Shown: positions 1 through 13,965 of the stretch, one piece after another
How the letters are laid out: each line of letters begins with the position of its first letter
How positions within the stretch are numbered: position 1 is the stretch's first letter
From: Corynebacterium freiburgense
Lineage (GTDB): Bacteria; Actinomycetota; Actinomycetes; Mycobacteriales; Mycobacteriaceae
Assembly (NCBI RefSeq): GCF_030408815.1
Contig: NZ_CP047356.1
Location: 1-13,965 of the forward strand
DNA: 13,965 bases
Reading direction: 5' to 3'
The notes under the pieces: model-generated
What the model was told of the DNA's origin: nothing
The model's database searches: none
What the model saw: the letters and a program-made list of their open reading frames with translations, nothing else
Translations under genes and position numbers: made by a program

Positions 1-23
1 GCGGCGTGGCGGATTGAGGGTGG

Positions 24-1172
24 TTAGGTTGGTGGGGTGCGCCAGATGGCGTTGACGGTGTGGGTGGTTTCGGTGGTGGTGACGGTGAGGGTGCCGCCGA
101 TGACGGTGAAGCAGGGGGGTGCGCCCATGATGGTGGCGATGGGGTCGCCGGCGATGCTGATGCCGGTGTGGAGGTCTTCCCATGGCAGCCAGCAGTACCT
201 GTTTTCCCACCACGATGGCGCAATAAGTCGATCGGAGAATGTGAATTTTCTTGAGCCCGTGACCTGCAGCTTCCAGAGTGCGGTCATATCCTCCTTGTAG
301 TCTGTGGTGTATACACCGTAGTCTGAAATGATTTTCATCACAGGACCGTGTCGGTCGGCGCGGTCGATGTCGATGATGATATGTCGTTTGGGCCCGATGA
401 CTGCGCCGGAGTTTTCTACCCAGATTAATTTTGTTCGGTGCTGGGGTCCGACACGGGCGGCGGCGGTGGAGATGACGTTGGTGGCGGGGAGTTCTGTCAG
501 CCCACCCCAGGTCAGGCCGCGGGCGGCGCACGTGGATACACGCAACGTTTGATAGTCCGGTGACCAGCACGGATAGCTGCCCATGGGACGGCAAATCGAT
601 GCCTCGAGCCATTGGCGGATGGTGCGTTTTTCTTGCTTGTGGGATGCGGGATACAACTCCGGGTTGCCACTGACGGTGTACGCGCTGATGCCCAGGCGCG
701 GCCGACCCTTTTTAATCAACCACTCGTTAATCATGGTTTTAGCATTATGAGCTTTCCGATCCCTCGGAAAAACATCAGGGGTGAGCCGGAAAATATCCTC
801 ATAATCAGTAGCTTCGATTGCGCGGATCAGCACGCGGCCGCCGTCCTCTGGCGGGTGGTTTGGGGTGATTTCCACCTCATCGACGTACCCCCGGAATACC
901 GGGACAGTTTTGGGTTCTTTCGTTTGAGTAGTCGGCGTGGGAATATTCAGGTCAACCACTATTTTTTTGCGCATAAACTCTACGGCCGCACGCAGATCAT
1001 CAGCAGAATCTGGGTAGTAAAGCTTGAGTGTGGCGGTGCGCGAGCGTGGTGGCTCGTTGAGTTCTTGACGCCCCCACGTCGTGGAAAACCCGGCAATCTC
1101 ATAAAGTGGGATGCGCGTCCCCGCAATTGACACGCGCAAACCCCGCGCCAGCGGTGATCGTTGTTTTACCAT
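24..1172 (-). CDS. Minor tail protein (probable distal tail/baseplate component)
   Basis: A 382-residue protein encoded directly after the tape measure gene, overlapping its end by 7 nt, which points to translational coupling. Its position and size fit the distal-tail or baseplate-hub proteins that follow the tape measure in siphophages. The N-terminal third (about 10-125) is rich in beta-type sequence, with GTRIPLYEIAGFSTTWGRQ and a later FRGYVDEVEI stretch, as in phage proteins that build the tail tip. The rest has no catalytic motif I recognise; the C-terminal about 60 residues are Thr/Ile-rich. No signal peptide or membrane segment is visible. The assignment rests mainly on gene order. 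The next tail gene must start beyond the left edge, since no start codon follows in the remaining 23 bases. The exact structural role is unknown. Confidence 0.75.
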   Translation of the reverse strand: MVKQRSPLARGLRVSIAGTRIPLYEIAGFSTTWGRQELNEPPRSRTATLKLYYPDSADDLRAAVEFMRKKIVVDLNIPTPTTQTKEPKTVPVFRGYVDEVEITPNHPPEDGGRVLIRAIEATDYEDIFRLTPDVFPRDRKAHNAKTMINEWLIKKGRPRLGISAYTVSGNPELYPASHKQEKRTIRQWLEASICRPMGSYPCWSPDYQTLRVSTCAARGLTWGGLTELPATNVISTAAARVGPQHRTKLIWVENSGAVIGPKRHIIIDIDRADRHGPVMKIISDYGVYTTDYKEDMTALWKLQVTGSRKFTFSDRLIAPSWWENRYCWLPWEDLHTGISIAGDPIATIMGAPPCFTVIGGTLTVTTTETTHTVNAIWRTPPT

Positions 1173-3193: not shown

Positions 3194-3347
3194 TGTTGAT
3201 TTCCTCTACCACGGCGACCGCAGTCGCGATCATCACATCATCGCAGGTGAAAAAATAGTCAGGGGCGACACCCCACGCATAGGCCAGGCGCATTAATTCC
3301 CGGATGGTGGTGCCCCGGTCGTAGGGTCCGGCATCACCTCCGGAGCA
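3186..3347 (-). CDS. Tail assembly chaperone, -1 frameshift extension (gpT-like)
   Basis: This is an open stretch in the -1 frame relative to the upstream chaperone. It is bounded by an in-frame TGA at 3348-3350 and ends at TAA 3186-3188, inside the start of the tape measure gene. It has no convincing start of its own. Its translation contains GTTIRELMRLAYAWGVAPDYFF and ends AVAVVEEINNG; the LAYAWG stretch looks like real coding sequence, not shadow. Ribosomes must shift between 3347 and 3296 to reach it. No textbook XXXYYYZ heptamer fits. The run of four G (minus strand) at 3313-3316, read GGG GCA, is one candidate. The longer fusion would be about 130 residues. Confidence 0.7.
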   Translation of the reverse strand, partial: CSGGDAGPYDRGTTIRELMRLAYAWGVAPDYFFTCDDVMIATAVAVVEEINNG

Positions 3348-3580
3348 TCATCGGCGACCAGGTCGGCGACGGTTTCGATCCATGTGTCAAAGTCCAGGGT
3401 GGTGGCGTGGGTGCGGTTGAGTGCGGCCCACGTCCAGTACGACATCCCGAGAAACGGTGCGTCCTGAAATGAGGGCCAGCCCATCCGGGCACGATGCATA
3501 TCAAACCGCACTTGGTCGGGGGTCATGACCTTCGCGGTTTCGGTCGTACCGTCGGAATACGTCACTGTGATTTTTTTCAT
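3293..3580 (-). CDS. Tail assembly chaperone, short form (gpG-like)
   Basis: A 95-residue protein just upstream of the tape measure gene, in the position of lambda gpG-type chaperones that hold the tape measure during tail assembly. It starts MKKITVTYSDGTTE and has a good ribosome site (AAGGAGC, 10 nt before the ATG). The central part (RFDMHRARMGWPSFQDAPFLGMSYWTWAALNRT) resembles the conserved helical region of actinophage tail chaperones. The frame stops at TAA 3293-3295. An overlapping -1 frame continues from about 3347 to 3186 without its own start, the classic layout of a programmed -1 frameshift making a longer gpGT product. The role comes from gene order and this layout. Confidence 0.82.
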   Translation of the reverse strand: MKKITVTYSDGTTETAKVMTPDQVRFDMHRARMGWPSFQDAPFLGMSYWTWAALNRTHATTLDFDTWIETVADLVADDAPEVMPDPTTGAPPSGN

Positions 3581-3586
3581 TGGTGG

Positions 3587-4000
3587 TTAAGCTCCTTCGA
3601 TGGTGTTGAGAATGTTCTTGACGTGCTCTTCGTAGAGGCGAAGCCATGTGGGTTCAGTTTTTTGGGCTTGCTCTGCAACAAACGGGTTTGGTGTGATGTT
3701 CCGGGCAAACCAGCCCCAGTGGATCGGCCCGGCGTAGGGCACGCTTTTCGCGCCAAGGCGGATACGTGCCCCGGTCTGGGTGGAGAACACTGTGAGCGTG
3801 TCTTTGAGTCTGCGAACGCGCGCGCGTTTTGTGCGCGAGCCTACTGGTGCGACAGCCACAGATGCGGTTTTGACGATTTCACCGGCTGATTTGTTGACCG
3901 CTTTGAGTTGTTTCATGTCGATGCCAGCGCGGCGGAGTGATGCGCGCAGTTGCCGGGCACCTTCGATTTCTACATGGCCGGGTGCTCCGGCGTAGCTCAT
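3587..4000 (-). CDS. HK97 gp10-like neck/tail completion protein
   Basis: A 137-residue basic protein. The pattern of an N-terminal helix with EIEGARQLRASLRRAG, a central APVGSRTKRARVRRLKDTL, then PYAGPIHWGWFARNITPNPF near the end matches the HK97 gp10/neck family. In that family a small domain ends with a conserved N/R-PF motif before a terminal helix. Its ATG overlaps the stop of the major tail gene (ATGA), so the two are translationally coupled. In most siphophages this gene lies before the tail terminator and major tail gene; here it lies after the major tail gene, which is unusual. Function is by family resemblance. Confidence 0.7.
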   Translation of the reverse strand: MSYAGAPGHVEIEGARQLRASLRRAGIDMKQLKAVNKSAGEIVKTASVAVAPVGSRTKRARVRRLKDTLTVFSTQTGARIRLGAKSVPYAGPIHWGWFARNITPNPFVAEQAQKTEPTWLRLYEEHVKNILNTIEGA

Positions 4001-4437
4001 GGCGTGATCCCGTTGACTTTCGTGGCTGGGGTGAATGTGGGTTCACCGATGAAATCCAGCTCGATGTTGGTAGTTCCAGCTTCCCCGACCTTGCCCCCGA
4101 CTTCTGGCGGGTCAAGGCGAACCGTGCCTTCGAATTTGCCACCATCGGTGGTGTTGGGAATGAACTCGATTTTCTCAGTGGTGCCTTTTTTCGACCACAA
4201 ATACCCAACGATGCCTTTAACGGTGAGGTTTTGCACACATGTGAGTTTCAACTTATAACTATAGGTAGTTGCCTCGGCGGCGACATCACCTGATAGGAGT
4301 TGGATTTCCGAGCCGGCTTTCACCGATGGTGCGATGGTTGCGGCGGACACCTCGGCGGAAAAGTTCAATCCGGCGGTGGATTGGCCAAGCACAATTTTGC
4401 CGGGCCCAGTGGTAGCAATTTTAGTGTTGACTGGCAT
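3997..4437 (-). CDS. Major tail protein
   Basis: A 146-residue protein of beta-rich character and no long helices, consistent with the tail-tube subunit. The usual context supports it: connector and terminator genes precede it, and chaperone plus tape measure follow shortly. The sequence has alternating polar/hydrophobic strands (TYSYKLKLTCVQNLTVKG, KIEFIPNTTDGGKFEGTVRL), as in tube proteins. The start is supported by AGGAGC five nt before the ATG. It is short compared with many actinophage tube proteins (often around 200 residues), so it probably lacks an Ig-like decoration domain. The assignment is from order and composition. Confidence 0.75.
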   Translation of the reverse strand: MPVNTKIATTGPGKIVLGQSTAGLNFSAEVSAATIAPSVKAGSEIQLLSGDVAAEATTYSYKLKLTCVQNLTVKGIVGYLWSKKGTTEKIEFIPNTTDGGKFEGTVRLDPPEVGGKVGEAGTTNIELDFIGEPTFTPATKVNGITP

Positions 4438-4446
4438 GGATAGCTC

Positions 4447-4788
4447 CTAGTGTGGGGGTCGGATGGTGAGAGAGAATGCAGGGCAGACCTCCCCGCCGGG
4501 GAGGGTGACGGTGGTCCCCAGGTCGGTGTCAACGACGTTGCCGCTCAGCACGTCCAGTGCTGTGGTGAGCATCTTTTCTAGCACGCCGATGGCCGCCGGG
4601 ATATCTGTTTCTGGGCTAATAAGATGAATCCCTATCTCAATAATGTTTGTGCCGTCGAGACGGCGGCCGAGCCAGCGGGTAGCATGCACCCACGCACACG
4701 GTGGATGCAGACATAGCGGGTCGATATCGGCCGGGATGCCCGCATTTTGGAGTGCGGTCGTAATGTCAGTGAGGCTGTCGGTAATCAT
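4447..4788 (-). CDS. Probable tail terminator
   Basis: A 113-residue protein with an N-terminal helix (ITDSLTDITTALQNAG) followed by alternating strands and a helix (AAIGVLEKMLTTALDVL). This fits the small alpha/beta fold of siphophage tail terminators, which cap the tail tube and join it to the head connector. It sits directly before the major tail gene with a 9-nt gap. Three Cys residues (LCLHPPCAW and EVCPAF) are present but form no clear metal motif. The alternative is a head closure protein: no separate head-stopper gene is visible between the connector and the tail tube. Confidence 0.6.
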   Translation of the reverse strand: MITDSLTDITTALQNAGIPADIDPLCLHPPCAWVHATRWLGRRLDGTNIIEIGIHLISPETDIPAAIGVLEKMLTTALDVLSGNVVDTDLGTTVTLPGGEVCPAFSLTIRPPH

Positions 4789-4802
4789 TGCAGTAACGGT
4801 AG

Positions 4803-5126
4803 CTAGGCGACGATGATGTCTCGGTGGCGCCCAAGGTTCAGCAATGCCTCGATATCGGGATCGTATTTCGCGACATAGCTGGGACCCAGTTCACCGATAG
4901 TTTCCACCCCGGAGGGGCTGGCGCGGCGTCGCCATAATCGGGCGGCGAGCATGTGCGCGCCACGGCGGGTTTTCGCACTGTCCCATTGGGACGCCGGGAC
5001 CCAGTCAGCGACCAGGTCTACGACTGCGTCGATGACGTCGGCGAGGTCAGCGTGATAGTCGCCGCTGAGTTTGAGTTGGGCGGCAAGCTTTTCGGCATTG
5101 ATGATGCCTACTGGTCGGTTGGTCAT
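4803..5126 (-). CDS. Head-tail connector (HK97 gp6-like adaptor)
   Basis: A 107-residue, largely helical protein following the capsid gene and overlapping its stop by 4 nt (ATGA). Its layout of an N-terminal helix (INAEKLAAQLKL), a second helix (ADVIDAVVDLVADWV), a basic helix (RRGAHMLAARLWRRRASPSG) and a short tail (YDPDIEALLNLGRHR) is typical of gp6/gp15-type adaptors that form the ring below the portal. The ARLWRRRASPSGVE stretch, with small residues after the basic helix, recurs in actinophage connector proteins. The role is inferred from helix pattern and position. Confidence 0.75.
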   Translation of the reverse strand: MTNRPVGIINAEKLAAQLKLSGDYHADLADVIDAVVDLVADWVPASQWDSAKTRRGAHMLAARLWRRRASPSGVETIGELGPSYVAKYDPDIEALLNLGRHRDIIVA

Positions 5127-6580
5127 GCGGTAAACTTCACCAACTTTAGGCCCTTGGGTTGCTCAACCAGTGTGGCGCGATAGCCGAACACGCCTTCATC
5201 GGTGGCACCTTTAGCGACGTTGAGTGCATCGACGCGGATCGGGCTGCCTGCTAACTCCCCGTGGCGGATGGCTGGTTTACACCACGCCAGGACTTTCCCT
5301 TTGCCGATCAATGGAGTTGGTTTCATCTGGGCCGGGGTAATGCCAAGCATTTCCAAAAACGCTGGTAATTCTTTTTCTTTGACATCGATCAAATTAAACC
5401 AATCCATGTCATTGACGACATACACATCCGGGTCGATATTGGTCGCAGCATGGATCGTGTGCCGCGCCCAGCCGCAGGCTTTAAACAGCGACCATTGCTT
5501 TGCAGATTGATCATCCTCGGCACCGGCACCCGCAAGCGCATCAGCCAGGGCTTTTTCGTCGGACTTTTGCGCATAGGATTCCGCCATGGCTGCGAAGTAT
5601 TTGGCGATGACATCGACTTGGTGGAAATGGATGTGCTCGATCGGCAGCTGGTTCGCGCCCGCCAATCGGGTGGCCTCAACTTCGACGAGTTCGAATTCAG
5701 CTTTAGTTGACGAGACTTCAGCGGGATGCCCAGCGTAGTCGGCGACCTCAGGTTTGGTTTTCCAGCGCACGCCTTGCATTTTCAACCCCGTGAGAGTGTC
5801 TTGCCGCATGGCCGGGATAAATTTCCGCTGGTAGGTGACGCCTTCCCAAAGCTCACCGACCCAGTTCGGCGCGAGCCCAAGTGGGGATTTCGCGACCTGC
5901 AATGATTGCAGTGCCGCGGTGAGCATAGTCGGCTCGGCGGTGGGATCATCCAGGCGGGCAAGCGCATCGTAGATCGCAGAGCAGCTGAGTTCGACTGGGC
6001 GCGGTGTGGCGTGGATGCCGCCGGGGGCTGCGGCCGGGCCTGCGCTGGCGGTGACAGTCTCGGCGGTGGGGGTGTCATTATTCATCGTGGTGGTCTCGGT
6101 TGGGTCGGGTGTGGTATGGGAGGCGGTGATACTGGTGACACGGGCGCTGGAGAACGCTGGGATCGCCACCAACGCGACTGACATCAGTGTCGCCGCAGTA
6201 ATTGTGTCACCGTCAAATTGGGGTTCGAGCAGTTCGACCGATAGCGCATCGCGCACTCCTTCGCGGATGTCTGCGCTGGCAAGATCGCCATCCGGGGTTC
6301 GGGCAAGATGAAATTTTGCGTACAAACCAGCATCGGTGTCGGTAAGTTCCAGGGCGTAGCCGACCGGTTGCCAATCTGCTTGAGTTGAGTGGTTTCTCAA
6401 CAATTTAATATGGCGAAGATCATCGGGGATGGTGATCGCCCCACGCGCGACCTGATAGTCTCCGGCGCTGGTCATGCCATGCTGATTCCACGGCAGGATA
6501 AGCCCTTCAACGATGCGTGGGGCAGCGTCGGCGTCAGTGCAGGTGGTGGCAGTCAACAGTGCGTTAGTCTGCAGAATCAC
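5123..6580 (-). CDS. Prohead protease-major capsid protein fusion (HK97 fold)
   Basis: A 485-residue protein joining two functions usually encoded separately. Residues about 20-155 match the HK97-type prohead serine protease: a PWNQHG start region, the catalytic His in LLRNHS (H64), and the catalytic Ser in DALSVELL (S114). A Thr/Ala/Pro-rich linker follows (about 154-195). Residues about 200-485 are an HK97-fold capsid protein, with the SPLGLAPNWVGELWEG start region, the E-loop region (about 255-290) and a C-terminal P-loop/A-domain ending GLKLVKFTA. No stop or frame change lies between the parts. The start is GTG, overlapping the holin end by 17 nt. ATG M166 (6083-6085), preceded 8 nt upstream by GAGA, could also give a 320-residue capsid alone. 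Confidence 0.88.
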   Translation of the reverse strand: MILQTNALLTATTCTDADAAPRIVEGLILPWNQHGMTSAGDYQVARGAITIPDDLRHIKLLRNHSTQADWQPVGYALELTDTDAGLYAKFHLARTPDGDLASADIREGVRDALSVELLEPQFDGDTITAATLMSVALVAIPAFSSARVTSITASHTTPDPTETTTMNNDTPTAETVTASAGPAAAPGGIHATPRPVELSCSAIYDALARLDDPTAEPTMLTAALQSLQVAKSPLGLAPNWVGELWEGVTYQRKFIPAMRQDTLTGLKMQGVRWKTKPEVADYAGHPAEVSSTKAEFELVEVEATRLAGANQLPIEHIHFHQVDVIAKYFAAMAESYAQKSDEKALADALAGAGAEDDQSAKQWSLFKACGWARHTIHAATNIDPDVYVVNDMDWFNLIDVKEKELPAFLEMLGITPAQMKPTPLIGKGKVLAWCKPAIRHGELAGSPIRVDALNVAKGATDEGVFGYRATLVEQPKGLKLVKFTA

Positions 6581-6833
6581 GGTGGCGCCCCTTTTTTTCT
6601 CGTGGTTCAGCAGCCAACCACGGCATGTAGGTTTTCATCCATGCCTCCGTAGCAGGGTGAGCAAGAATACGGGTGATCGTAGCGATCGTGGCGAGGGTTG
6701 CCGCCACCCATGGAATGGATTCAATGCCAAGTTCTTTGGCAATGATTGGCAAAATCGGGCCGATGCCAATGACAGCGGCGACCAGGGTGCGGATCGTGGC
6801 GCGGTTTGGATGTTTCACTTGTGTTGGTGTCAT
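6564..6833 (-). CDS. Holin (two transmembrane segments)
   Basis: An 89-residue membrane protein. Two hydrophobic segments lie at about 14-32 (IRTLVAAVIGIGPILPIIA) and 40-57 (IPWVAATLATIATITRIL), followed by an amphipathic part and a charged tail (EPREKKGRHRD). This is the form of class II-type holins in actinophages. It follows the lysin gene and a tiny membrane ORF, and its ATG overlaps the stop of that ORF (ATGA). It should make lesions in the cytoplasmic membrane so that the signal-less lysin can reach peptidoglycan. Its end overlaps the capsid fusion start by 17 nt, so lysis and head genes are on one transcript. Confidence 0.8.
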   Translation of the reverse strand: MTPTQVKHPNRATIRTLVAAVIGIGPILPIIAKELGIESIPWVAATLATIATITRILAHPATEAWMKTYMPWLAAEPREKKGRHRDSAD

Positions 6834-6940
6834 GGTTGTACGGGAGCAGGATCAGGGGCAACAACCGTAAGCAGTTGCCGGACGGCAAAGGTATTCACCA
6901 CAGCGGTGATGGTTAAGGCAACAAGTTCGATGACGGTCAT
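6830..6940 (-). CDS. Small single-span membrane peptide in lysis cassette
   Basis: A 36-residue ORF (MTVIELVALTITAVVNTF...) lying exactly between lysin and holin. It overlaps both through ATGA junctions: its ATG overlaps the lysin stop and its TGA overlaps the holin ATG. This precise double coupling is strong evidence that it is translated. Residues 3-17 are strongly hydrophobic and residues 20-30 moderately so, giving one likely membrane segment with a Pro/Asp tail. It may be a second holin-like or antiholin peptide, or mainly a coupling device. I do not recognise a family. Confidence 0.6.
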   Translation of the reverse strand: MTVIELVALTITAVVNTFAVRQLLTVVAPDPAPVQP

Positions 6941-7794
6941 GGTTTTGCAGAAAACCCTTGCACTTCAAGGGCTTCACCAATGGCGGCCAAGGCATCGACG
7001 ACGGTGCGCCCGCCGAGCTGCGGCCAGCCGGCGAATGTGTGGCCATGGGCATCGCGGCCCGGCCCGGCCAACTGGTCAAGGATCAATGAATCAATATCTG
7101 TGCGCATAGGTTCACTTTCTTCCATCGGTGAGGTGGTGCCATAGAACAGGGCATGTAGTTGTTCTCTGGTGCCACGAAAAGCATTGATATCAACACCTGA
7201 ATTTCCGCCGCGCCAGCTTCCAAATCGCGCTTCTGAGCTAAATTGCCACAACGCTGGCTGTTGGTTGCCCAATGGGTAATTCCACTGCCTGTGGCTATTT
7301 CCTGGATAAATATTTTTTGGCGGGCCCGGGGTATTGGTTCCATAAGCGGCGACCCAAAATGCACCGAACTCATGGCTATCTGGCTCATTTGGTGAAATTT
7401 TATGCTCCCAATAGGGAACATATGAATAACACCCGATGACACGAACACCAGCTTGCTCGAACAGTCGCTTACATTCGCGGATGTGATCGACGTGGATGCC
7501 TGCGGGGGTTTCCACATCAATCCACATTGGGCGTTGCTGGTTTCCCATAACCTCAAGGGAGGCTTGTACCTGGGCCGCAATACTCGATCCTTCACGAGGG
7601 TTACGCAAATAGTGGTATGCCGACGTAATCAGGCCAGCTGCCTCGGCGTCTGCCAGATGCGACTGGTAGACCCGGTCACGGTGGATGCCATCAGTAGTAC
7701 GAATGATGGCGAAATCCAGGTCCGACTCGCGGGCGGCCTCGACGAGGCTGAGACCGTTTTGCCACTCAGAGACATCAACGCCAAAAATAGTCAT
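6937..7794 (-). CDS. Endolysin, GH25 muramidase with C-terminal domain
   Basis: A 285-residue lysin. Residues 1-215 form a GH25 (Chalaropsis-type) lysozyme domain that cleaves the MurNAc-GlcNAc bond. The motifs are GVDVSEWQ (D7), AYHYLRNP, and WIDVETPAG, with the acidic pair D93 and E95. QPALWQFSS and SGVDINAF near the end of the domain are also typical. Residues about 229-282 form a separate small region (DQLAGPGRDAHGHTFAGWP, then LGGRTVVDALAAIGEAL) that resembles repeats seen in corynephage lysins and may anchor the enzyme or interact with the wall. There is no signal peptide, so release depends on the holin. The start overlaps the portal stop (ATGA), an unusual location for a lysin. Confidence 0.9.
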   Translation of the reverse strand: MTIFGVDVSEWQNGLSLVEAARESDLDFAIIRTTDGIHRDRVYQSHLADAEAAGLITSAYHYLRNPREGSSIAAQVQASLEVMGNQQRPMWIDVETPAGIHVDHIRECKRLFEQAGVRVIGCYSYVPYWEHKISPNEPDSHEFGAFWVAAYGTNTPGPPKNIYPGNSHRQWNYPLGNQQPALWQFSSEARFGSWRGGNSGVDINAFRGTREQLHALFYGTTSPMEESEPMRTDIDSLILDQLAGPGRDAHGHTFAGWPQLGGRTVVDALAAIGEALEVQGFSAKP

Positions 7795-8876
7795 TGGTTC
7801 TCACTTTCAATTTCAACATGTGGGTTAGGCGCGGGTAGGGAACGATCATCAGGCACAGTGAGTGCAGCGATATCGGCGGTGGCCTCGCTGGTATCGACCC
7901 TGAGTGACACACCACGGGGCACAATGTCGTCCATCCCCAGTCGGGCGGTGACCGCTGAAATCATCGGGGCGATGCCAAAGGTGATCAGCTCGGCCATCCT
8001 GGCTTGAGTATTGGAATACGACAAGGAGGTGCCGGAGAGGGTGGCATCGATCATCGCGGCCGGGATCGAGCACAGTCGCGCCAAGTCAACCGCAACCGCG
8101 TTGCGGCCCTCAACCAACAGGTGTTCTTTGATGCTGCCGTGTTCTTTCACTTCAATGCCTGCTGAAGTGAATGCGACCCCACCATCGCGGCCTTTCCGGG
8201 CACGAATCCAGCTTTGTTTCAGCTCGGCGACTTTTTCCGGTGTCAACGGCTTATCACTGGTTTGATGCAACTCGGTGGTGTGGGCTGGGGTTTCTACTGC
8301 GCGCCGCACCCCACGAGCAAGCGCGAGTGCTTCCGGGATGGTGGTTTTCCCCAGTGCAAGAATGCCCTCATGAATCCCAGGGATCAGGATATGGGTTGCG
8401 GCCGCAACCGGCGCCCCATCGACTAGGACACGATCCTCGGCATCAAATGCCCAGGCATCGTATGGGACCCGGTCAGCGGTGAGCACATGACCTGAGTAGT
8501 CGCGGGTGACCCGCCACAGTGACCAGCCGTAAAACAGCAGATCGTCGATGGTCCACAACATCCGGTGATACGGGCTGAGCAGCCCATCAGTGCGGGAAAT
8601 CCATGCGGGTTGGGCATCCAGGTCTGTGCCGTTTCGCACCGCTACGATCGGGAGCCGAGCGCAGGTAGTGCAAATAAGGTTGCGGGCGCGCAGCAGTGCA
8701 GGAATCGTGAGGGCCGCGTCACGGGTAATACCATGCAATGACACGTCATCGAGATCGTCACCAATGAAACTCAGGGACTCCAACCTGGGGTGCTCAGACA
8801 AAGACGAAGTGGGCGCGGTCATCGCGCGCAGCGCCCGAAATGCATCCATCATGCCCATGGATGCATCATTGACCAC
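7791..8876 (-). CDS. HK97-type portal protein
   Basis: A 361-residue portal that forms the dodecameric channel at one capsid vertex. Family features are the N-terminal helix with ITRDAALTIPALLRARNLICTTCARLPI, the WTIDDLLFYGWSLWRVTRD clip-region approach, and the C-terminal crown half with LCSIPAAMIDATLSGTSLSYSN followed by ARMAELITFGIAPMISAVTARL. It follows the large terminase by 41 nt. The start taken is GTG at 8876, with GCGGAA about 12 nt upstream; ATG at 8858 is the alternative and would remove six residues. It is at the short end for the family, which fits the compact genome. Confidence 0.9.
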   Translation of the reverse strand: MVNDASMGMMDAFRALRAMTAPTSSLSEHPRLESLSFIGDDLDDVSLHGITRDAALTIPALLRARNLICTTCARLPIVAVRNGTDLDAQPAWISRTDGLLSPYHRMLWTIDDLLFYGWSLWRVTRDYSGHVLTADRVPYDAWAFDAEDRVLVDGAPVAAATHILIPGIHEGILALGKTTIPEALALARGVRRAVETPAHTTELHQTSDKPLTPEKVAELKQSWIRARKGRDGGVAFTSAGIEVKEHGSIKEHLLVEGRNAVAVDLARLCSIPAAMIDATLSGTSLSYSNTQARMAELITFGIAPMISAVTARLGMDDIVPRGVSLRVDTSEATADIAALTVPDDRSLPAPNPHVEIESENQ

Positions 8877-8917
8877 ACTGATGGTTTTCCGCTGAATCTA
8901 TAGAACACGCTGGGGTT

Positions 8918-10363
8918 TTAGTAAATTTCTGGTTCGATGTCTTCGCGGTAATTCTGGGCACCAATCATCGCCAGTGTCGCTGCCTCCAACGGAGCAATCG
9001 ACCCGACCGCTGCACGCCGATCCCACACCCAGGAATCACCAACCCGACGACGAGCGGCGATATCAGCGGCGGCGTCCAATGCCGGATCGGGGCGTATCTT
9101 GATCTCCGGGGCAAACATGCCATCATCATCAATGTGCATCAAGCGGGTCAAAAAATCACCACACCCCGCCGCCAGCGCCCGAAACGTGATTTTATTCACA
9201 TGAATGCCTTTGCGGTCCAGTTCAGCAGCAAGAGCATCTGCCGGGCCGATCGGGTCAATCCATACCTGTGCGCCGTGGGCTTCACACAGTTCATTAATTC
9301 GTTCCACCGCCCACCGATATCCGGGGCGTGCATCAACAACTTCAACCATTGGTTGCGAGGCCACGATGGAAGCAGTAACAATAATGGCGGTATTACGATC
9401 AGCGGCGACAGCTACGCCGAACGCCACTGGCGCATCAGCTGGAATCGGGTCGTCACTGGATGCCATCTCCCATGCTTCAATGGGGATCAATCGATCTCGG
9501 GTATGTGTTTCACGATTACCGTAAGCCCTAGCAAACTCATTAACCTTACCACCCATTTTCTTCCACGCAGCCTGCAACGACTCCACCGACTGGGTGAACC
9601 CAACCGCAGGATGCGCCGCAGCGACAACAGCAATATCGCTGGCATCGTCATCATCAGCAATGCCCCAATCCAGCAGCGCCACACCTTCCTTCCCCACACG
9701 GGCCGCCTCAACCTGATCGTGAAACCATGTACTCGCCGCCGTCCCACGAGTCGAGACCAAAATGACTTGCGCACCAGGGCGAGTGGACTGGGTCGGGGTA
9801 ATTGCCTGCATCAGCGCTTCACCTTCAGCTTGGTCGAACACCCATGCCTCATCAATCACGTTGAAGTCGCCTTGCTCACCGTGTAGCGACTCCTCTGTCG
9901 GGGGATGCGGCGCCCAGTCAGAACCATTTCGAGGGATCAGAAAATGCTCATCACCACGAGATTTCTTCCGGTCAAACAGCTTTGATAACGGAAACGTTGG
10001 ATCAAGTAAATCATTGGTGAACTTCATCCAATTCCGCCGGGCGTGCCCGCCGGTTTGGGCGGTGGACCACACATATGACTTCGGAGCTTGCAGTGCGCGC
10101 TGGATACATGCGGCACCAATAAGCCGGGTTTTTCCCGACTGGCGCGGTACCGAAATAATCACCAGTGGCCACCGGCGCAACCCCGTGGCACGATCAACCT
10201 CACCAATAACATCCGCAGCCCACTCCTGCCATGGCATCGCCGGCGTGCCAGACCACTCCATAATCTGGCAAATGGCAGGGCCAAACGTAGGGTTAATCGT
10301 CGGCCGAGGCGTGGCGAATCGTGGGGGTGCTGAGCGCTGCAAGGGCTTGGGTAATGGCATCAT
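8918..10363 (-). CDS. terL: Terminase large subunit
   Basis: A 481-residue ATP-driven packaging motor and nuclease. Walker A is PRQSGKT (residues 73-79) and Walker B is FNVIDE (167-172), with the catalytic Glu at 172. STRGTAASTW (from about residue 204) follows as the coupling motif. The nuclease half carries AFGVAVAADRNTA and VWIDPIGPADALAAEL, whose Asp residues are candidates for the RNase H-like metal site. The N-terminus (PRPTINPTFGPAICQIMEW) is typical of actinophage terminases. The start at 10363 overlaps the small terminase by 71 nt; ATG at 10360 is equivalent. The large overlap is unusual, but the early residues look like real family sequence. Confidence 0.93.
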   Translation of the reverse strand: MMPLPKPLQRSAPPRFATPRPTINPTFGPAICQIMEWSGTPAMPWQEWAADVIGEVDRATGLRRWPLVIISVPRQSGKTRLIGAACIQRALQAPKSYVWSTAQTGGHARRNWMKFTNDLLDPTFPLSKLFDRKKSRGDEHFLIPRNGSDWAPHPPTEESLHGEQGDFNVIDEAWVFDQAEGEALMQAITPTQSTRPGAQVILVSTRGTAASTWFHDQVEAARVGKEGVALLDWGIADDDDASDIAVVAAAHPAVGFTQSVESLQAAWKKMGGKVNEFARAYGNRETHTRDRLIPIEAWEMASSDDPIPADAPVAFGVAVAADRNTAIIVTASIVASQPMVEVVDARPGYRWAVERINELCEAHGAQVWIDPIGPADALAAELDRKGIHVNKITFRALAAGCGDFLTRLMHIDDDGMFAPEIKIRPDPALDAAADIAARRRVGDSWVWDRRAAVGSIAPLEAATLAMIGAQNYREDIEPEIY

Positions 10364-10634
10364 CGGCGTCAGTATTTCGAGCAGAAGGGATCAATTTCAT
10401 TTCCCGAAGCAATTCCATATACGGCCCAGATAATTGGGCAATCGCATAGTACTTCCGATCAGCTTCGGCTTGGTCCAAAGCGCGGGCATTCGCCCGAGCC
10501 AGCGATACTGCCGCCTCGTCGAGGGTTTCGAGGTAACCATCGCGGCGAGCTTGGGCGATCGCAGTCTCAAGCATTTGGGCGTGTCGGTCACCGGTCGGCA
10601 CATCAGCCGGGGTAAACAGCGCGGGTTGGTTCAT
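10293..10634 (-). CDS. Terminase small subunit (probable)
   Basis: A 113-residue helical protein directly before the large terminase, with which it overlaps by 71 nt in another frame. The central region (MLETAIAQARRDGYLETLDEAAVSLARANARALDQAEADRKYYAIAQLSGPYMELLREMKL) predicts long helices suited to the oligomerisation core of a small terminase. The DNA-binding N-terminal HTH seen in many families is not evident, as in several actinophage small terminases. Between its start and the HNH gene lies a 136-bp non-coding GC-rich stretch that may contain cos, which the small terminase would bind. The role rests on position and helix content. Confidence 0.7.
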   Translation of the reverse strand: MNQPALFTPADVPTGDRHAQMLETAIAQARRDGYLETLDEAAVSLARANARALDQAEADRKYYAIAQLSGPYMELLREMKLIPSARNTDADDAITQALAALSTPTIRHASADD

Positions 10635-10770
10635 GGCAAAACTTTTTCCGTTTCGGGGGTTATGAGTGAAAACAAGGGGGGAGGGGGGAGGGGGGACGCC
10701 CCCCGGGGCACAACGGGGAGAGATTTTCCGGCTGGCGCGGGGCTTCCCCGACCTCGGCTTTTATAAAAAC
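10635..10770. other. Candidate cos / packaging region
   Basis: A 136-bp gap between HNH and small terminase genes, in an otherwise gapless cluster. It has extreme strand asymmetry: G-runs on the plus strand, an AT-rich palindrome (TTTTATAAAA) near 10759-10768, and a GGGG-AAG-CCCC inverted repeat near 10740-10750. In HK97 and relatives, cos lies between an HNH gene and the small terminase when the genome is circular, so this is the best place for it. The sequence alone does not reveal the nick positions. Confidence 0.45.
10676..10708. repeat. GGGGGGA tandem repeat with GC hairpin
   Basis: Three G6 runs separated by single A residues (10676-10681, 10683-10688, 10690-10695) are followed by ACG, a C6 run (10699-10704) and G4 (10705-10708). 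The third G6 and the C6 form a perfect 6-bp inverted repeat with a 3-nt spacer. With the last G4, the plus strand also has the four G-tracts needed for a G-quadruplex. There is no T-run on either side, so it is not an ordinary intrinsic terminator. Confidence 0.85.
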
Positions 10771-11040
10771 TCACCATCGGCGACTCGGCGGCAGAGTTTT
10801 CCCAGGTCGCACTGGGTATTTCGCGAACCACATATCAAGCGGCATATCACGGCGGGCTGAATTGCAACTGGCGTGCGCCGGACGAAGATTCTCGATCGAA
10901 TCATCACCACCAGCCGAACGAGGCACCACATGATCGGCTGTGTCAGCACCATCACGCAAGCACAAATGGCAGATCGTGCCGTACGTCGCCAACGTCAACA
11001 CCCGCAGCCGCGACGCAGATCGCCCACCCCAACCAGCCAT
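10771..11040 (-). CDS. HNH endonuclease
   Basis: A small nuclease of 89 residues with a complete HNH zinc core (numbering from the ATG). CHLC (C24, C27) supplies the first zinc pair. DHVVPRSAGGDDSIENLRPAH gives the catalytic His (H37) and the central Asn (N51). HASCNSARRD gives the second zinc pair (H56, C59) and the last Asn. HNH proteins next to terminases assist cos cleavage and packaging in HK97-like phages. I chose ATG 11040, preceded by GAGGTG at 5 nt; GTG 11043 is possible. The gene overlaps the WhiB-like stop as TGATG, so it is translated in the same operon. Confidence 0.88.
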   Translation of the reverse strand: MAGWGGRSASRLRVLTLATYGTICHLCLRDGADTADHVVPRSAGGDDSIENLRPAHASCNSARRDMPLDMWFAKYPVRPGKTLPPSRRW

Positions 11041-11525
11041 CACAGCACCTCACACTCAGCCTGCGCGCGCGATACCCGCCCCCTATCCCGGCGGGGTGCA
11101 GGATGGGCAGGGGCGGGGTGGGTCCCCCTCCGCCGACGCGCCCGAGCAGCCCGAGCAGCCCGAGCCGTTTGCTCCGTGACAGCTGCGTCCAGCTGCGCTG
11201 CATGCATCGCGCGCAGCGACAACCCACTAGCCACCCCACTCACCGCAGCGATCGCCACACGATAACGCACAGACACGCCATGCGGCGGAATCGGAATACC
11301 AGCAACAATCACCCCACCAATCGGCGGCGCAGGCAACGACAAGGCATAGGTAGCACACGCACGCAGCAACGGACAGCCGCCACACAACTGCGCAGCACGC
11401 TCGTGCAACAGGCGAGTGCGCTCAGCAAGAGACTGCTCAGACGGAAACGAAGTAGGGTAGTCCCACCACGTGGGATCAGCATCAGGAGCCGTACACGGCG
11501 TCGGCACCCCAGGAAAGATGGTCAT
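11040..11525 (-). CDS. WhiB-like iron-sulfur transcription factor
   Basis: A 161-residue protein with the four-cysteine pattern of the WhiB family: C11, then CGGCPLLRAC giving C48, C51 and C57 (C-x2-C-x5-C), ligands for a 4Fe-4S cluster. It is followed by IGGVIVAGIP, which matches the position of the family's G-[VI]-W-G-G turn but lacks its Trp. WhiB proteins are restricted to Actinobacteria and their phages and act on the sigma factor. The C-terminal half (about 95-161) is an unusual Ala/Arg-rich extension (TARAARAARARRRRGTH) and may bind DNA non-specifically. GAGGG lies 8 nt before the ATG. It may time late transcription or alter host regulators; the target cannot be read from sequence. Confidence 0.85.
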   Translation of the reverse strand: MTIFPGVPTPCTAPDADPTWWDYPTSFPSEQSLAERTRLLHERAAQLCGGCPLLRACATYALSLPAPPIGGVIVAGIPIPPHGVSVRYRVAIAAVSGVASGLSLRAMHAAQLDAAVTEQTARAARAARARRRRGTHPAPAHPAPRRDRGRVSRAQAECEVL

Positions 11526-11568
11526 AAGTCATGCCCTCACAGATCAATCAATACACAAGGCCTATAGA

Positions 11569-11799
11569 TCACAGCCACTCCAGGCCAAAGAGTTCGAAGG
11601 CCCAAAGGGCCCCCTTTGCTGTGACCTCCCAGTCGCGCTTCCCAGTTTTTCCGCCTCCCGTCGTCACACCCACGACCAGTAGCCGATGGGCGATTTTGCC
11701 CACCGGCTTCCAGCTATACGCCACGCCCACACTGATCAGATGTGAGATGGCGGTATAACGCCGAGCCGTCATACGCTTTGGTTTATGTATTGGAGGCAC
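11569..11799 (-). CDS. Small hypothetical protein, possible winged-helix DNA binder
   Basis: A 76-residue basic protein from a GTG start. I do not recognise a family. The stretch RRYTAISHLISVGVAYSWKPVGK could be a recognition-helix region, and RDWEVTAKGALWAFELFG resembles the wing and last helix of small winged-helix proteins (W-x-V-T-x-K-G pattern). ATG at 11772 would give a 67-residue form. No strong ribosome site precedes either start. It lies in line with, and 43 nt before, the WhiB-like gene, and a pair of 14-bp direct repeats lies just upstream. It could be a local regulator. Confidence 0.45.
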   Translation of the reverse strand: MPPIHKPKRMTARRYTAISHLISVGVAYSWKPVGKIAHRLLVVGVTTGGGKTGKRDWEVTAKGALWAFELFGLEWL

Positions 11800-11989
11800 A
11801 TACTCGGCCGCAGTTGGTTAGTGTCGAACTTGCGGGACAAACGACAGATCGGGTCGAAGTTGGTTAATGACTATTTAGTTAGTTCTTGATGCCTCCGCAT
11901 ACGCGGTGCACCACGAGGAAACACCAACAGAACGGCAACGTTGATGTGTCCTCGTGACCCACCCGCACCCAGGCAGTCACAACCAGCAA
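11800..11989 (-). promoter_or_regulatory. Intergenic control region with paired 14-bp repeats
   Basis: A 190-bp gap, the largest non-coding stretch in the leftward gene series. It holds two near-identical direct copies, GCCGCAGTTGGTTA (11807-11820) and GTCGAAGTTGGTTA (11853-11866), 46 bp apart with two mismatches. A related GTCGAACTT lies between them at 11823-11831. No clear -35/-10 pair stands out. The position suggests regulation of the WhiB/HNH/terminase part of the operon, but no regulator can be assigned. Confidence 0.5.
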
Positions 11990-12178
11990 CTAAAACAACG
12001 GCTCAGGCAACCACACTGCTAACTCCTCCCGACACCGGGCACACACATGCTCCCCCGCCCACGGACCCGACACCATCCGCGGCGGTACACACCCTTCGGC
12101 AAAATGCACACCACAAACTCCACACCGGGTTTTCGACCGACGCGCAGGACGCCACTCAGCAGACACAGTCAGGTTCAT
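11990..12178 (-). CDS. Small four-cysteine (zinc-ribbon-like) protein
   Basis: A 62-residue protein with two Cys pairs, CGVC and CARC, about 22 residues apart, flanked by basic residues (RPARRSKTRCGVCGV) and ending in VWLPEPLF. The paired C-x2-C motifs suggest one zinc site. ATG 12178 is chosen because GGGGGGTG lies 5 nt upstream; a further start at 12205 would add nine residues and a larger overlap. It overlaps the preceding membrane protein gene by 23 nt. Such small zinc proteins are common in early operons of actinophages; function unknown. Confidence 0.65.
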   Translation of the reverse strand: MNLTVSAEWRPARRSKTRCGVCGVHFAEGCVPPRMVSGPWAGEHVCARCREELAVWLPEPLF

Positions 12179-12503
12179 CACCACACCCCCCATGCGACAC
12201 GACATTCTGCCGGATCCGAGTCACCAACTCAGGCGGAAGATGCCCCCCAATCGGCCCATACGTCCGCACCCACGCCTCCGCAGTCTGCAACGCCTCAGCA
12301 GCAACATACCCATACGGGGCCGACTCCTCCCCATAAATCTCATCAACCACCCCAATCAAATCATCAATCCACACCGGCACAGGCGCAGGCCGAGAAGCCA
12401 CCACACCATCCGATTTCCCCCCACCATTGCCTGATAAAAAGATACATATAACCATCACGGCGATACCGGCAAGACCAACCAAAAAAGCAAACACAGACAT
12501 CAC
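12156..12503 (-). CDS. Membrane-anchored hypothetical protein
   Basis: A 115-residue protein with an N-terminal membrane segment (about 5-24, VFAFLVGLAGIAVMVICIFL), a Gly/Ser/Pro-rich linker, and a soluble domain (about 44-105) with WIDDLIGVVDEIYGEE and an Ala-rich helix ending in AEAWVRTYGPIGGHLPPELVTRI. It finishes with a Cys-rich tail (GCGDEPDCVC). GGAAGG lies 7 nt before the GTG; ATG 12500 is the alternative. The start overlaps the stop of the HTH gene, so it belongs to the first operon made from the early promoter. I recognise no family. A superinfection-exclusion or similar envelope role is possible, but only a guess. Confidence 0.65.
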   Translation of the reverse strand: MMSVFAFLVGLAGIAVMVICIFLSGNGGGKSDGVVASRPAPVPVWIDDLIGVVDEIYGEESAPYGYVAAEALQTAEAWVRTYGPIGGHLPPELVTRIRQNVVSHGGCGDEPDCVC

Positions 12504-12688
12504 GCCACTGCCTTCCGGTCAAGCAGTTCGCGAACATCATATTCCGAAAAAATATAGGTTCCCGTTTGAGTTGAACTTTTCAAAACCGGTGCCAAAATCC
12601 CTTGCTTCACCCAACGATGAACCGTCGATCGGTTAACCCTAAATAGTTTTGCCACCTCATGCGTAGATAGCAACTGTTGCTGTTCCAT
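12500..12688 (-). CDS. MerR/HTH-17-type DNA-binding protein (excisionase or Cro equivalent)
   Basis: A 62-residue protein, nearly all one winged-helix domain: STHEVAKLFRVNRSTVHRWVKQG is the helix-turn-helix (about 8-30), and TGTYIFSEYDVRELLDR is the wing plus last helix. This family contains recombination directionality factors (Xis) and small regulators. It is divergent from the repressor and is the first gene of the leftward operon, the Cro position; it may serve as either or both. ATG 12688 is chosen over a weaker upstream TTG. The palindromic operator at 12669-12681 lies within codons 3-7, so the gene is probably repressed from inside its own start. No ribosome site is seen; the promoter predicts a nearly leaderless transcript. 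Confidence 0.8.
   Translation of the reverse strand: MEQQQLLSTHEVAKLFRVNRSTVHRWVKQGILAPVLKSSTQTGTYIFSEYDVRELLDRKAVA
12669..12681. promoter_or_regulatory. Operator O1 (AGCAACTGTTGCT)
   Basis: A perfect palindrome with 6-bp arms and a central T. Its 11-bp core GCAACTGTTGC is identical to O2. It lies just inside the start of the HTH gene, where a bound repressor would block the leftward early transcript. Confidence 0.75.
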
Positions 12689-12695
12689 ACCATGA

Positions 12696-12724
12696 CTAAT
12701 ACCAATGGATAGACTCAAGCGCAA
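12696..12724 (-). promoter_or_regulatory. Putative leftward early promoter
   Basis: On the minus strand TTGCGC (12724-12719) and TATTAG (12701-12696) are 17 nt apart. The -10 box ends 7 nt before the HTH gene's ATG, so the transcript would begin at or near the start codon, as is common in actinobacteria. The -35 box overlaps operator O2 and O1 lies just downstream. Box matches are moderate. Confidence 0.5.
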
Positions 12725-12732
12725 CTGTTGCG
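12720..12732. promoter_or_regulatory. Operator O2 (CGCAACTGTTGCG)
   Basis: A perfect 13-bp palindrome (6-bp arms, central T) sharing the 11-bp core with O1; the centres are 51 bp apart. It covers the -35 element of the putative leftward promoter. Confidence 0.78.
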
Positions 12733-12756
12733 TTTCTAATCAATTTCTTAAACTGG

Positions 12757-12777
12757 ACTTTGGGGGCACTTTGGGGG
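12757..12777. repeat. Tandem ACTTTGGGGG repeat
   Basis: Two exact copies of ACTTTGGGGG (12757-12766, 12768-12777) with one C between them. The 11-bp period places both copies on about the same face of the helix. It lies between O2 and the repressor promoter and overlaps no gene, so it may bind a regulator or host factor. Confidence 0.7.
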
Positions 12778-12807
12778 TTGATATTGCAACAACTATTGCG
12801 TTAGGGT
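12778..12807 (+). promoter_or_regulatory. Putative repressor/integrase promoter
   Basis: TTGATA (12778-12783) and TAGGGT (12802-12807) are 18 nt apart. The -10 box ends 6 nt before the repressor ATG, again predicting a leaderless message. TAGGGT fits the TAnnnT form seen in actinobacterial promoters. AGGGTG, 5 nt before the ATG, could instead be a ribosome site. O3 lies in the spacer. Confidence 0.5.
12789..12799. promoter_or_regulatory. Operator O3, degenerate (ACAACTATTGC)
   Basis: Matches 9 of 11 positions of the O1/O2 core and lies in the spacer of the repressor promoter. This placement suits autoregulation at lower affinity. A GCAAC half-site also lies at 12786-12790. Confidence 0.5.
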
Positions 12808-12813
12808 GTCAAC

Positions 12814-13158
12814 ATGACAATGCAGCAACATTTCGACTTTTCAAAACTGGAATTTAATCTCGGAGATCGCCTCCGAAAAGCATTAGAGATCGCAGACCTG
12901 ACTGCTATCGACATGGCTACATACTTAGACATCTCTAAATTCACCATTAGCCGCTATATCAATGGAAAAGTCCCTGTTCCATTACAGACCCTTCGCCTGT
13001 GGTCGCTTAGGACTGGTGTCCCACTGGAGTGGTTGCAAACAGGGAAAACCCCCACCAGTGATCCTGATGGGGGTAATACTGTGGGCCCTGTGGGGCTCGA
13101 ACCCACGACCTACGGATTAAGGATTAGGCGTGTCTTACACGGGGTCAGGGCAGCATAG
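12814..13158 (+). CDS. XRE-family immunity repressor whose 3' end contains attP
   Basis: A 114-residue repressor. Residues about 15-77 form an XRE-type HTH domain: RLRKALEIADLTAIDMATYLDIS then KFTISRYINGKVP as recognition helix, and TLRLWSLRTGVPLEWLQTG as the closing helix. It probably binds the GCAACTGTTGC operators and keeps the leftward operon silent. Residues 79-114 are different: they are encoded by a terminator hairpin and by the tRNA-Lys 3' half (V90-L102, including GLEPTTYGL), then by 11 residues of phage-only sequence ending HGVRAA. The -AA end resembles an ssrA-type tag. Crossing over within the core would replace this end. The integrase follows 15 nt after the stop on the same strand. 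Confidence 0.88.
   Translation: MTMQQHFDFSKLEFNLGDRLRKALEIADLTAIDMATYLDISKFTISRYINGKVPVPLQTLRLWSLRTGVPLEWLQTGKTPTSDPDGGNTVGPVGLEPTTYGLRIRRVLHGVRAA
13045..13074 (-). terminator. Terminator for the tRNA-Lys formed on integration
   Basis: On the minus strand ACCCCCATCAGG pairs with CTGGTGGGGGT (7 bp, one mismatch, 3 bp, 5-nt loop) and is followed by TTTT. It lies just past the 3' end of the tRNA segment at 13081-13121. It could end transcription of the host tRNA gene once rebuilt at the attachment junction. It lies inside the repressor coding sequence; the plus strand has no T-run, so repressor-to-integrase read-through is possible. Confidence 0.65.
13081..13121 (-). other. attP: attP core: 3' half of tRNA-Lys (CTT)
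   Basis: On the minus strand this reads as tRNA from the anticodon CTT through the anticodon stem TCCGT, variable loop AGGTC, T-arm GTGGG-TTCGAGC-CCCAC and acceptor strand AGGGCCC. No 5' half is present to the right, where GGATTAGGCG replaces the expected anticodon stem. It is therefore an integration core and not a working tRNA gene. Tyrosine integrases of actinophages commonly use such tRNA 3' halves. The exact edges depend on the host tRNA. Confidence 0.85.
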
Positions 13159-13170
13159 GTTTAACCTATG
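13154..13170. promoter_or_regulatory. Palindrome between repressor and integrase
   Basis: CATAGGTTTAACCTATG is a perfect inverted repeat with 8-bp arms around one T. It covers the repressor stop codon and ends 3 nt before the integrase ATG. It may be a protein-binding site (integrase or directionality factor) or a weak RNA hairpin over the integrase start. Confidence 0.65.
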
Positions 13171-13173
13171 TAA

Positions 13174-13965
13174 ATGCAAAGAGTTTTATTAGAGGATTGT
13201 CTACGGGGGTGGCGGAAAGAACTTGCTGCAGCTGGACGCAGTGACGGAACTCTAGGCGTCCGAACATCACACACCCGCCGGGTGCTTAATTCCATAGGTG
13301 TCCCGCTGCATGATGTCCGTCGACACCACCTAATAAGCTGGCTGGCTCAATGCAAATACGCACCCGAAACTCGGCGTCAAGTAATCATCTCACTTCGAAT
13401 GTTTTTTGCGTGGCTTTTAGCTCAAAATAAGATTTCGGCAAACCCAGCTGAATCACTTCCAGCCGTTGCACGACCTCGCAAATCTCCGATGCCCGCAGCC
13501 GACTATCAAATAATCAAAGCCATGCAAGAAGCACCAGCATGGGTAGCGCTCGCCGTCGAGATCATGACTACCTGCGGTCTGCGAAGGTTTGAAGTAGCAA
13601 AACTAAGAAGCCTTGATGTGCAAGCAATCGGCAACCTTTGGACCATACATGTCATCGGCAAAGGTGGACATTCACGATATGTGCCGTGTCCACCACACCT
13701 TGCAATCAAACTTACAGCTAAACAAGGGTATGTATTTCCAGGGGGCCAGAATGGCCATGTGTCAGCTGGCTGGCTTGGAAAACAAATCAGTAAATATTTG
13801 CCCGCCGGAATTACTTCACATAAATTGCGCCACAGATACGCCAGTGTGGCCTATCGATCACACCACGATCTACGTGCAGTGCAACAACTTCTAGGCCACG
13901 CAAGCGTGGCTACGACTGAAGCCTACACCGCAGTTGATCCGTCGAGCGTTATTGAGACAGCCAGC
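13174..13965 (+). CDS. int: Tyrosine integrase (C-terminus cut by window edge)
   Basis: At least 264 residues with no stop before the window end. The N-terminal part (about 1-95: LRGWRKELAAAGRSDGTLG, RRQVIISLRMFFAWLLAQNKI) is the SAM-like core-binding domain. The catalytic domain has every expected residue: R137 (CGLRRFE), K163 (GKGGHSR), H216 and R219 (HKLRHRYAS), H242 (LLGHASVATTEAY) and nucleophile Y251. There is no long N-terminal arm-binding domain, so the protein is short for a phage integrase. The ATG is the first codon after an in-frame TAA at 13171 and has no ribosome site, suggesting coupling to the repressor message. It should recombine the adjacent attP with a host tRNA-Lys gene. 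Confidence 0.93.
   Translation, partial: MQRVLLEDCLRGWRKELAAAGRSDGTLGVRTSHTRRVLNSIGVPLHDVRRHHLISWLAQCKYAPETRRQVIISLRMFFAWLLAQNKISANPAESLPAVARPRKSPMPAADYQIIKAMQEAPAWVALAVEIMTTCGLRRFEVAKLRSLDVQAIGNLWTIHVIGKGGHSRYVPCPPHLAIKLTAKQGYVFPGGQNGHVSAGWLGKQISKYLPAGITSHKLRHRYASVAYRSHHDLRAVQQLLGHASVATTEAYTAVDPSSVIETAS

Follow-up and report, generated by a model that had tools for sequence, protein, structure and literature searches.

A phage attachment site that lies inside a repressor gene raises the question of what integration does to the repressor, and with it to the immunity of the lysogen. Such a locus is found in the window analyzed here, i.e., the whole 13,965-bp stretch from Corynebacterium freiburgense, which is the entire circular contig C2 of a 2.96-Mb genome assembled in two contigs. 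The phage genes tested correspond to a small tailed phage set (terminase, portal, GH25 lysin, head protein with protease, tape measure, integrase, and repressor). A copy of the window sequence is present in the chromosome (C1:2480055-2494019), integrated in tRNA-Lys(TTT); a CoA-transferase gene with 92% identity to its C. choanae counterpart adjoins this chromosomal prophage. Comparison of the two copies as circles detected a single mismatch in 13,965 positions, at window position 13047, which is the place where host and phage bases differ. Because the copies differ at this one base only, and at the core edge, C2 is the excised form and C1 carries the lysogen, so that both forms are present in one assembly. 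A similar pair was found in the genome G071, in which a 16,908-bp contig C2, holding attP, showed 0 mismatches to the integrated prophage of the same genome (L125, L128).

It is highly improbable that the attP circle is an assembly artefact in which attL and attR were joined via their common core: although the window contig starts at the edge of a 12,505-bp block that it has in common with a second prophage, and the G071 circle contig begins at its core, as if the assembler had cut at repeat edges, the cores of 73 and 35 bp are, judging from the contigs, short repeats for an assembly in which a contig of 2.95 Mb was closed, and the circle is present in two genomes. Moreover, the attP sequence would be identical either way, and the reading of the switch would hold. 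Regarding size, Rhodococcus phage RRH1 (14.2 kb) is reportedly, by the title of a 2012 paper, the smallest known siphovirus genome; the window and the second prophage (13,958 bp) are both below this value, RRH1 being the sole size comparison.

The attP core and the two repressor forms

The first-pass annotation had placed the attP core in frame in the 3' end of the repressor gene, which was borne out (Table 1). Read from the shared ATG, the attP form comprises 114 aa (...TYGL-RIRRVLHGVRAA, ending -HGVRAA) and the attR or lysogen form 109 aa (...TYGL-KVRSSTN, where a TGA in the D-arm of the tRNA serves as the stop): integration swaps the last 12 residues of the repressor for seven host-encoded ones. 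The lysogen repressor is shorter than the viral form, its stop coming from bacterial DNA near the junction, and tRNA-Lys(TTT) is complete at attR after integration. The replaced part begins at residue 103, in accordance with the earlier estimate of about R103; likewise, the expectation that the frame would read into the tRNA, stop in the D-arm and lose the -AA end was confirmed at the real attR junction, where the end is KVRSSTN and the -VRAA end is not kept. The core owes its length of 73 bp to the inclusion of the terminator hairpin that belongs to the tRNA gene itself. A joined empty site (attB) was sought in 242 genus genomes, 241 of which gave a match; among the matches listed, none except that of the own genome extends more than 6 bases into the host left flank, and these matches thus gave no empty site with this sequence.

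Table 1. Features of the window, with positions, strand and the basis of each assignment
Feature	Positions	Strand	Basis
Gene for the 114-aa repressor as read in the excised (attP) state; N-terminal HTH domain and tail RIRRVLHGVRAA	12814..13158	+	ORF; matches above cut-off to HTH_3 and Phage_CI_repr, and to the transcriptional repressor family phrog_2328 (E 5.7e-21)
Common core of attP (73 bp), with the same sequence in attL and attR of the chromosomal copy	13048..13120		Direct repeat
3' part of tRNA-Lys(TTT) within the core	13081..13120	-	ARAGORN call at L010 16057-16130 (minus strand) in the integrated copy
Predicted degron, i.e., the tail RIRRVLHGVRAA of the phage form only (codons 103-114); KVRSSTN instead in the lysogen	13120..13155	+	Junction reading
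Tyrosine integrase, first 264 of 272 codons	13174..13965	+	Phage_integrase PF00589; full ORF read across the circle; C-terminus WRIEGG, no -AA
Integrase, last codons and stop, across the circle joint	1..27	+	272-aa ORF
Divergent small HTH gene, 74 aa, excisionase/MerR-like	12500..12724	-	HTH_17; phrog_66 excisionase and transcriptional regulator, E 1e-8
Candidate operator GCAACTGTTGC	12670..12680		Repeat count
Candidate operator GCAACTGTTGC, second copy	12721..12731		Repeat count; no copy in the cassette of the second prophage
Terminator-like hairpin (13049-13073) and TTTT tract (13045-13048); opposite strand translated as part of GKTPTSDPDGG	13045..13073	-	Hairpin energy -19.2 kcal/mol; 7 nt past the tRNA of the lysogen
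Immunity-integration cassette, 1,460 bp, sole part differing from the second prophage of the same chromosome	12506..13965		Prophage comparison

The annotated gene order, with the repressor followed by the integrase on one strand and a small divergent HTH gene, was found as described. The GCAACTGTTGC copies proposed as candidate operators are not significant by count, since 43 of 200 shuffles give two matches at ≤1 mismatch. Between the HTH gene and the repressor (12757-12777), ACTTTGGGGG occurs in two direct copies 11 nt apart. A sigma-70 scan at attR returned one promoter-like site as compared to 0.8 expected.

At the level of sequence, the viral form carries a two-alanine ssrA-like end (-HGVRAA) that is absent from the prophage form, but the match to the host ssrA tag AENTQRDYALAA is limited to the last two residues. 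Both clpX and a tmRNA (tag ...ALAA) are present. A degradation signal at the integrase C-terminus, which belongs to the BPs switch in the narrow sense, was not found in the predicted protein, which ends in WRIEGG.

Repressor tails in Corynebacterium and other Actinobacteria

A search with the repressor profile matched 36 of the 242 genus genomes at E ≤ 0.001, with strong matches (E below 1e-16) at 14 places in 11 genomes; 12 of these places were fetched, the remaining two being the own prophage and the own circle. A tRNA-Lys(CTT) overlaps the repressor stop in ten of the 12, the exceptions being G108 and the G071 circle. At G108 (L126, C1 2727191-2727829 and 2774442-2775004) neighbouring repressor-like genes occur in pairs, and no tRNA was found in the stretch fetched around the first pair. 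Seven of the ten places with tRNA overlap hold a second core copy, giving prophages of 13,958 to 17,175 bp, while none was present in the stretches fetched for G227, G188 and G189. The core ends in TG in six of these seven prophages: host DNA extends it to a TGA stop, phage DNA to a codon for Trp or Cys. In seven further prophages of the genus, the phage tail is likewise lost on integration.

A database search and a comparison of C-termini, as suggested in the first-pass annotation, supported its reading. The repressor is a distant homologue (34% identity) of the annotated repressor of Angel, a BPs-group phage whose repressor ends in -DKAS in our own translation. Within Corynebacterium, the attP tails, two taken from circles (window and G071) and six reconstructed, are WLMAIPA, WLNALPA, LLLLVA, WLELVAA, WLRSVPA, CLELIAA and WFDVSPLRPVA besides that of the window, and all eight end in Ala. 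Because only three of them end in -AA and five in PA or VA, the degron appears to be looser than the ssrA tag.

Across Actinobacteria, 71 loci were sorted by an antisense-tRNA motif; duplicates were excluded (L039, L048, L057 and L083, having the same printed repressor ends as L033, L034, L036 and L082, respectively), as were L024-L031 before the counts, and G108 (no tRNA) and the G071 circle from the tail and other-ORF counts, and the own attR form was not among the 71. Forms with the motif were regarded as attP-like when their stop was not covered by a tRNA and was followed by at least 500 nt of sequence. Of these, 16/18 end in AA, AS or VA (the misses being L051 and L056), as compared to 0/18 forms with a tRNA over the stop, 0/12 cut at a contig end, 12 of the 23 loci without a motif match and 80/1,078 other ORFs of the same loci; these counts are descriptive, the three end classes having been picked after the tails were seen and the loci being related. 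The lysogen tail KVRSSTN was also found in a Rhodococcus prophage at tRNA-Lys(TTT) (L034). When viral_contigs was searched with the single repressor, eight of 11 loci matched only in the tRNA-derived end (residues 87-106). Several loci, among others L021, L033, L035-L037, L060, L067 and L069, run antisense through differing tRNA genes (Lys, Asn), and the frame used also varies (GLEP- and DSN-type motifs). The use of several tRNA genes and frames by the relatives implies that the tRNA-derived end was replaced more than once.

The overlap of core and repressor might be a by-product of compact packing in a genome of only 13,965 bp with tightly packed genes, in which case the tail would be no degron and both forms equally stable and active, and five of the eight genus tails indeed lack an -AA end. 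We consider this unlikely: differing tails converge on terminal Ala (8/8) or on AA, AS or VA (16/18 attP-like forms, with 0/18 for the lysogen forms), and degradation of the BPs homologue via its tail is described in the available part of PMC4557955. According to the same part, the long BPs repressor form is degraded via an ssrA-like tail, the short form is stable, and the BPs integrase also bears a degradation signal.

The hairpin in the repressor linker

In the window, the linker codons ahead of the tRNA part encode GKTPTSDPDGGN, and the tRNA strand reads CCCCCATCAGGATCACTGGTGGGGG followed by TTTT. The hairpin exists: its GC stem is clear, with five T in the next eight bases. The native site has the same hairpin, followed by TATTTTT, 7 nt past the tRNA, and a strict scan calls it a terminator, whereas the same scan at attR misses the hairpin of the window. 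In all eight prophages with both ends known, a native tRNA-Lys hairpin lies 1-19 nt downstream of the tRNA gene and is left at the far att site by integration, and in all eight a phage-supplied hairpin is present inside the repressor gene, 0-7 nt from the tRNA. The phage hairpin is identical to the native one in two cases (own and G107), near-identical in G131 and unrelated in five. Its T-tract is shorter than the native one in six of the eight prophages and longer in two; the native G071 hairpin has just two T in eight bases.

Whether such hairpins exceed what the protein sequence imposes was assessed with 500 synonymous recodings per locus, drawn from the codon usage of that locus, the GC-stem version being the preferred control. 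It covered 44 linkers, four having been dropped as too short and G188 owing to a motif outside the pattern and another hairpin. Hairpin energy gave p<0.05 in 21 linkers and, jointly with the T count, in 27, and no joint signal was obtained in 17/44, Angel included; for the window linker, p was 0.010 on energy and 0.002 jointly. Earlier controls gave p<0.05 in 27/41 with crude GC weights and, with loosely bounded hairpins, in 19/46 on energy and 24/46 jointly, T being higher on the tRNA strand in 27 and lower in 15. In one run, same-length segments from the HTH part of the same genes scored in 8/88 cases as compared to 20/44 linkers. Furthermore, Watson-Crick pairs occupied four variable stem positions of ten Corynebacterium hairpins (G188 excluded) in 29/40 cases versus 19.2 with the 3' arms shuffled (p about 0.00025, the hairpins being treated as independent though related). 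Among the 31 hairpins of ≤ -12 kcal/mol, 24 carried more T on the tRNA strand than on the other, two carried less and five showed no difference. The mean T count in eight bases was 3.8 on the tRNA strand versus 2.3 on the other, and 1.9 versus 0.9 in the recoded controls; since the latter are also T-richer on the tRNA strand, part of this asymmetry is set by the amino acids.

We predict that the linker hairpin acts as a terminator and takes over from the tRNA terminator that integration moves 14 kb off. Short T-tracts and the strict scan at attR would fit a different role, namely that of an mRNA structure of the repressor-integrase message, of a protein-binding site in integration or excision, or of a mere trace of captured host DNA, and the identical native hairpin in two of the eight prophages might be a recent capture. 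A non-terminator role is possible but on the doubtful side, because the hairpin occupies the native hairpin's former place, 0-7 nt past the tRNA, in 8/8 prophages, because in five of the eight the phage and native hairpins are unrelated, for which capture alone is insufficient, and because 24 of the 31 strong hairpins have more T on the tRNA strand. As to the predicted terminator role, a terminator inside a repressor gene in such a setting was not found in the titles and abstract starts of the open-access papers searched.

Relation to known systems, proposed switch and possible cassette exchange

Integration-dependent immunity is a known kind of switch, with Broussard et al. 2013 reportedly, by the papers that cite it, as its founding paper, and the window phage is placed by its sequence as a member. 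Homology to the Angel repressor implies that the switch belongs to this known kind and is not an independent invention. The three key features of integration-dependent immunity, as set out in the available passages of PMC9934374, are present here by sequence. As far as the available descriptions go, mycobacteriophage BPs (gp33) resembles the window phage in its attP within the repressor gene, the adjacent integrase, the divergent HTH gene, the long viral form with an ssrA-like end and the shorter prophage form, but differs in host genus, tRNA and genome size (about 41 kb versus about 14 kb); the window integrase, unlike that of BPs, lacks a tag-like end, and the BPs relative Angel has no linker hairpin. 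The first-pass annotation had seen a known logic in a phage with different genes and a tRNA-Lys site. The tRNA-Lys(TTT) site is correct but not new, since Gordonia cluster CW phages use a tRNA-Lys, and the repressor is distantly homologous to that of Angel. Cluster CW (Jeanie, McGonagall, GMA5, GRU3) is the closest known system: the available part of PMC5559632 describes small siphovirus genomes, a tRNA-Lys attB and an attP in the repressor, with genomes of 17.1-17.7 kb and a 37-bp core, whereas the window phage has 13,965 bp and a 73-bp core spanning the tRNA terminator; the word terminator does not occur in that paper. Comparison of window positions 12500-13965 with the phage collection gave one record, matched over 40 bp, and in this stretch no DNA shared with cluster CW. 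For Bifidobacterium prophages Bb423phi2 and 689b-1 (about 18 kb), the available part of PMC6109161 reports the repressor at one att site and the integrase at the other, as in the lysogen of the window phage, with an ssrA-like end only in the viral form, which was reconstructed in silico; unlike in the window, the site is tRNA-Met. Gordonia phage Rahul / Coeur and Curtobacterium phage Barebow (16-18 kb) likewise have the repressor and then the integrase on one strand with a divergent HTH gene; their hosts differ, and the aligned parts of their repressors are about 40% identical to the window repressor; the Rahul repressor passes through the antisense-tRNA motif to -HAA. In the available passages of PMC9635641 and PMC5513430, Corynebacterium is mentioned solely in comparisons or as a host, either predicted or tested, and no Corynebacterium phage with integration-dependent immunity was found in the titles, abstract starts and passages of the open-access papers searched.

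Taking these data together with the tails, we consider it very probable that, with attP inside the repressor gene, integration turns a 114-aa -VRAA form, likely degraded by ClpXP, into a stable 109-aa -KVRSSTN form, that immunity hinges on integration, and that the linker hairpin likely ends the tRNA transcript. The DNA itself shows that one genome carries the two forms, and it shows the core, the restored tRNA at attR with the repressor stop in its D-arm, and the tail loss in the seven further prophages; that the long form is unstable and the short one confers immunity is inferred from BPs and from the tails. Integration into tRNA-Lys(TTT) trades the -VRAA end for -KVRSSTN; by analogy with BPs, we propose that the viral form would be degraded, likely by ClpXP, and the 109-aa form would be stable and bind the operator. 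The core would split the repressor from the integrase, now at attL, whose supply from the repressor promoter would, as in BPs, be lost. On the opposite strand, the hairpin would likely end the tRNA transcript in the lysogen, in place of the host terminator left behind at the distant prophage end, and would prevent antisense read-through from the tRNA into the repressor.

The second prophage (L118, G000:C1 about 2371348-2385305, 13,958 bp) is integrated in tRNA-Lys(CTT) of the same chromosome and matches the window without any difference over 12,505 bp (1-12505), an identity that could be a shared consensus, because window position 1 is the exact edge of this block, which the assembler probably took as a repeat. 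The remaining cassettes of 1,460 bp (window) and 1,453 bp (second prophage) hold the HTH gene, candidate operators, repressor, attP and integrase, the repressors being 38% and the integrases 45% identical; GCAACTGTTGC occurs twice in the window and never in the second prophage, TAGTCAGATGACTA once in the second prophage and never in the window. By this arrangement, immunity and integration site would travel together. We lean, by a little, towards the view that the hairpin ends tRNA transcription after integration and shields the repressor from antisense transcription, and that swapping one 1.46-kb cassette changes immunity and site at once, so that two otherwise identical phages can share a cell.

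The findings place integration-dependent immunity in Corynebacterium and provide natural excised/lysogen pairs from two genomes, whereas in studies of this switch one of the two forms often had to be reconstructed from the other. They also make a neglected question testable, namely what stops transcription of the tRNA gene once a prophage has shifted its terminator by 14 kb. The switch itself is already known elsewhere; what is new would be the dual-coded hairpin which, if it works as predicted, would let the repressor gene guard both the tRNA and itself.
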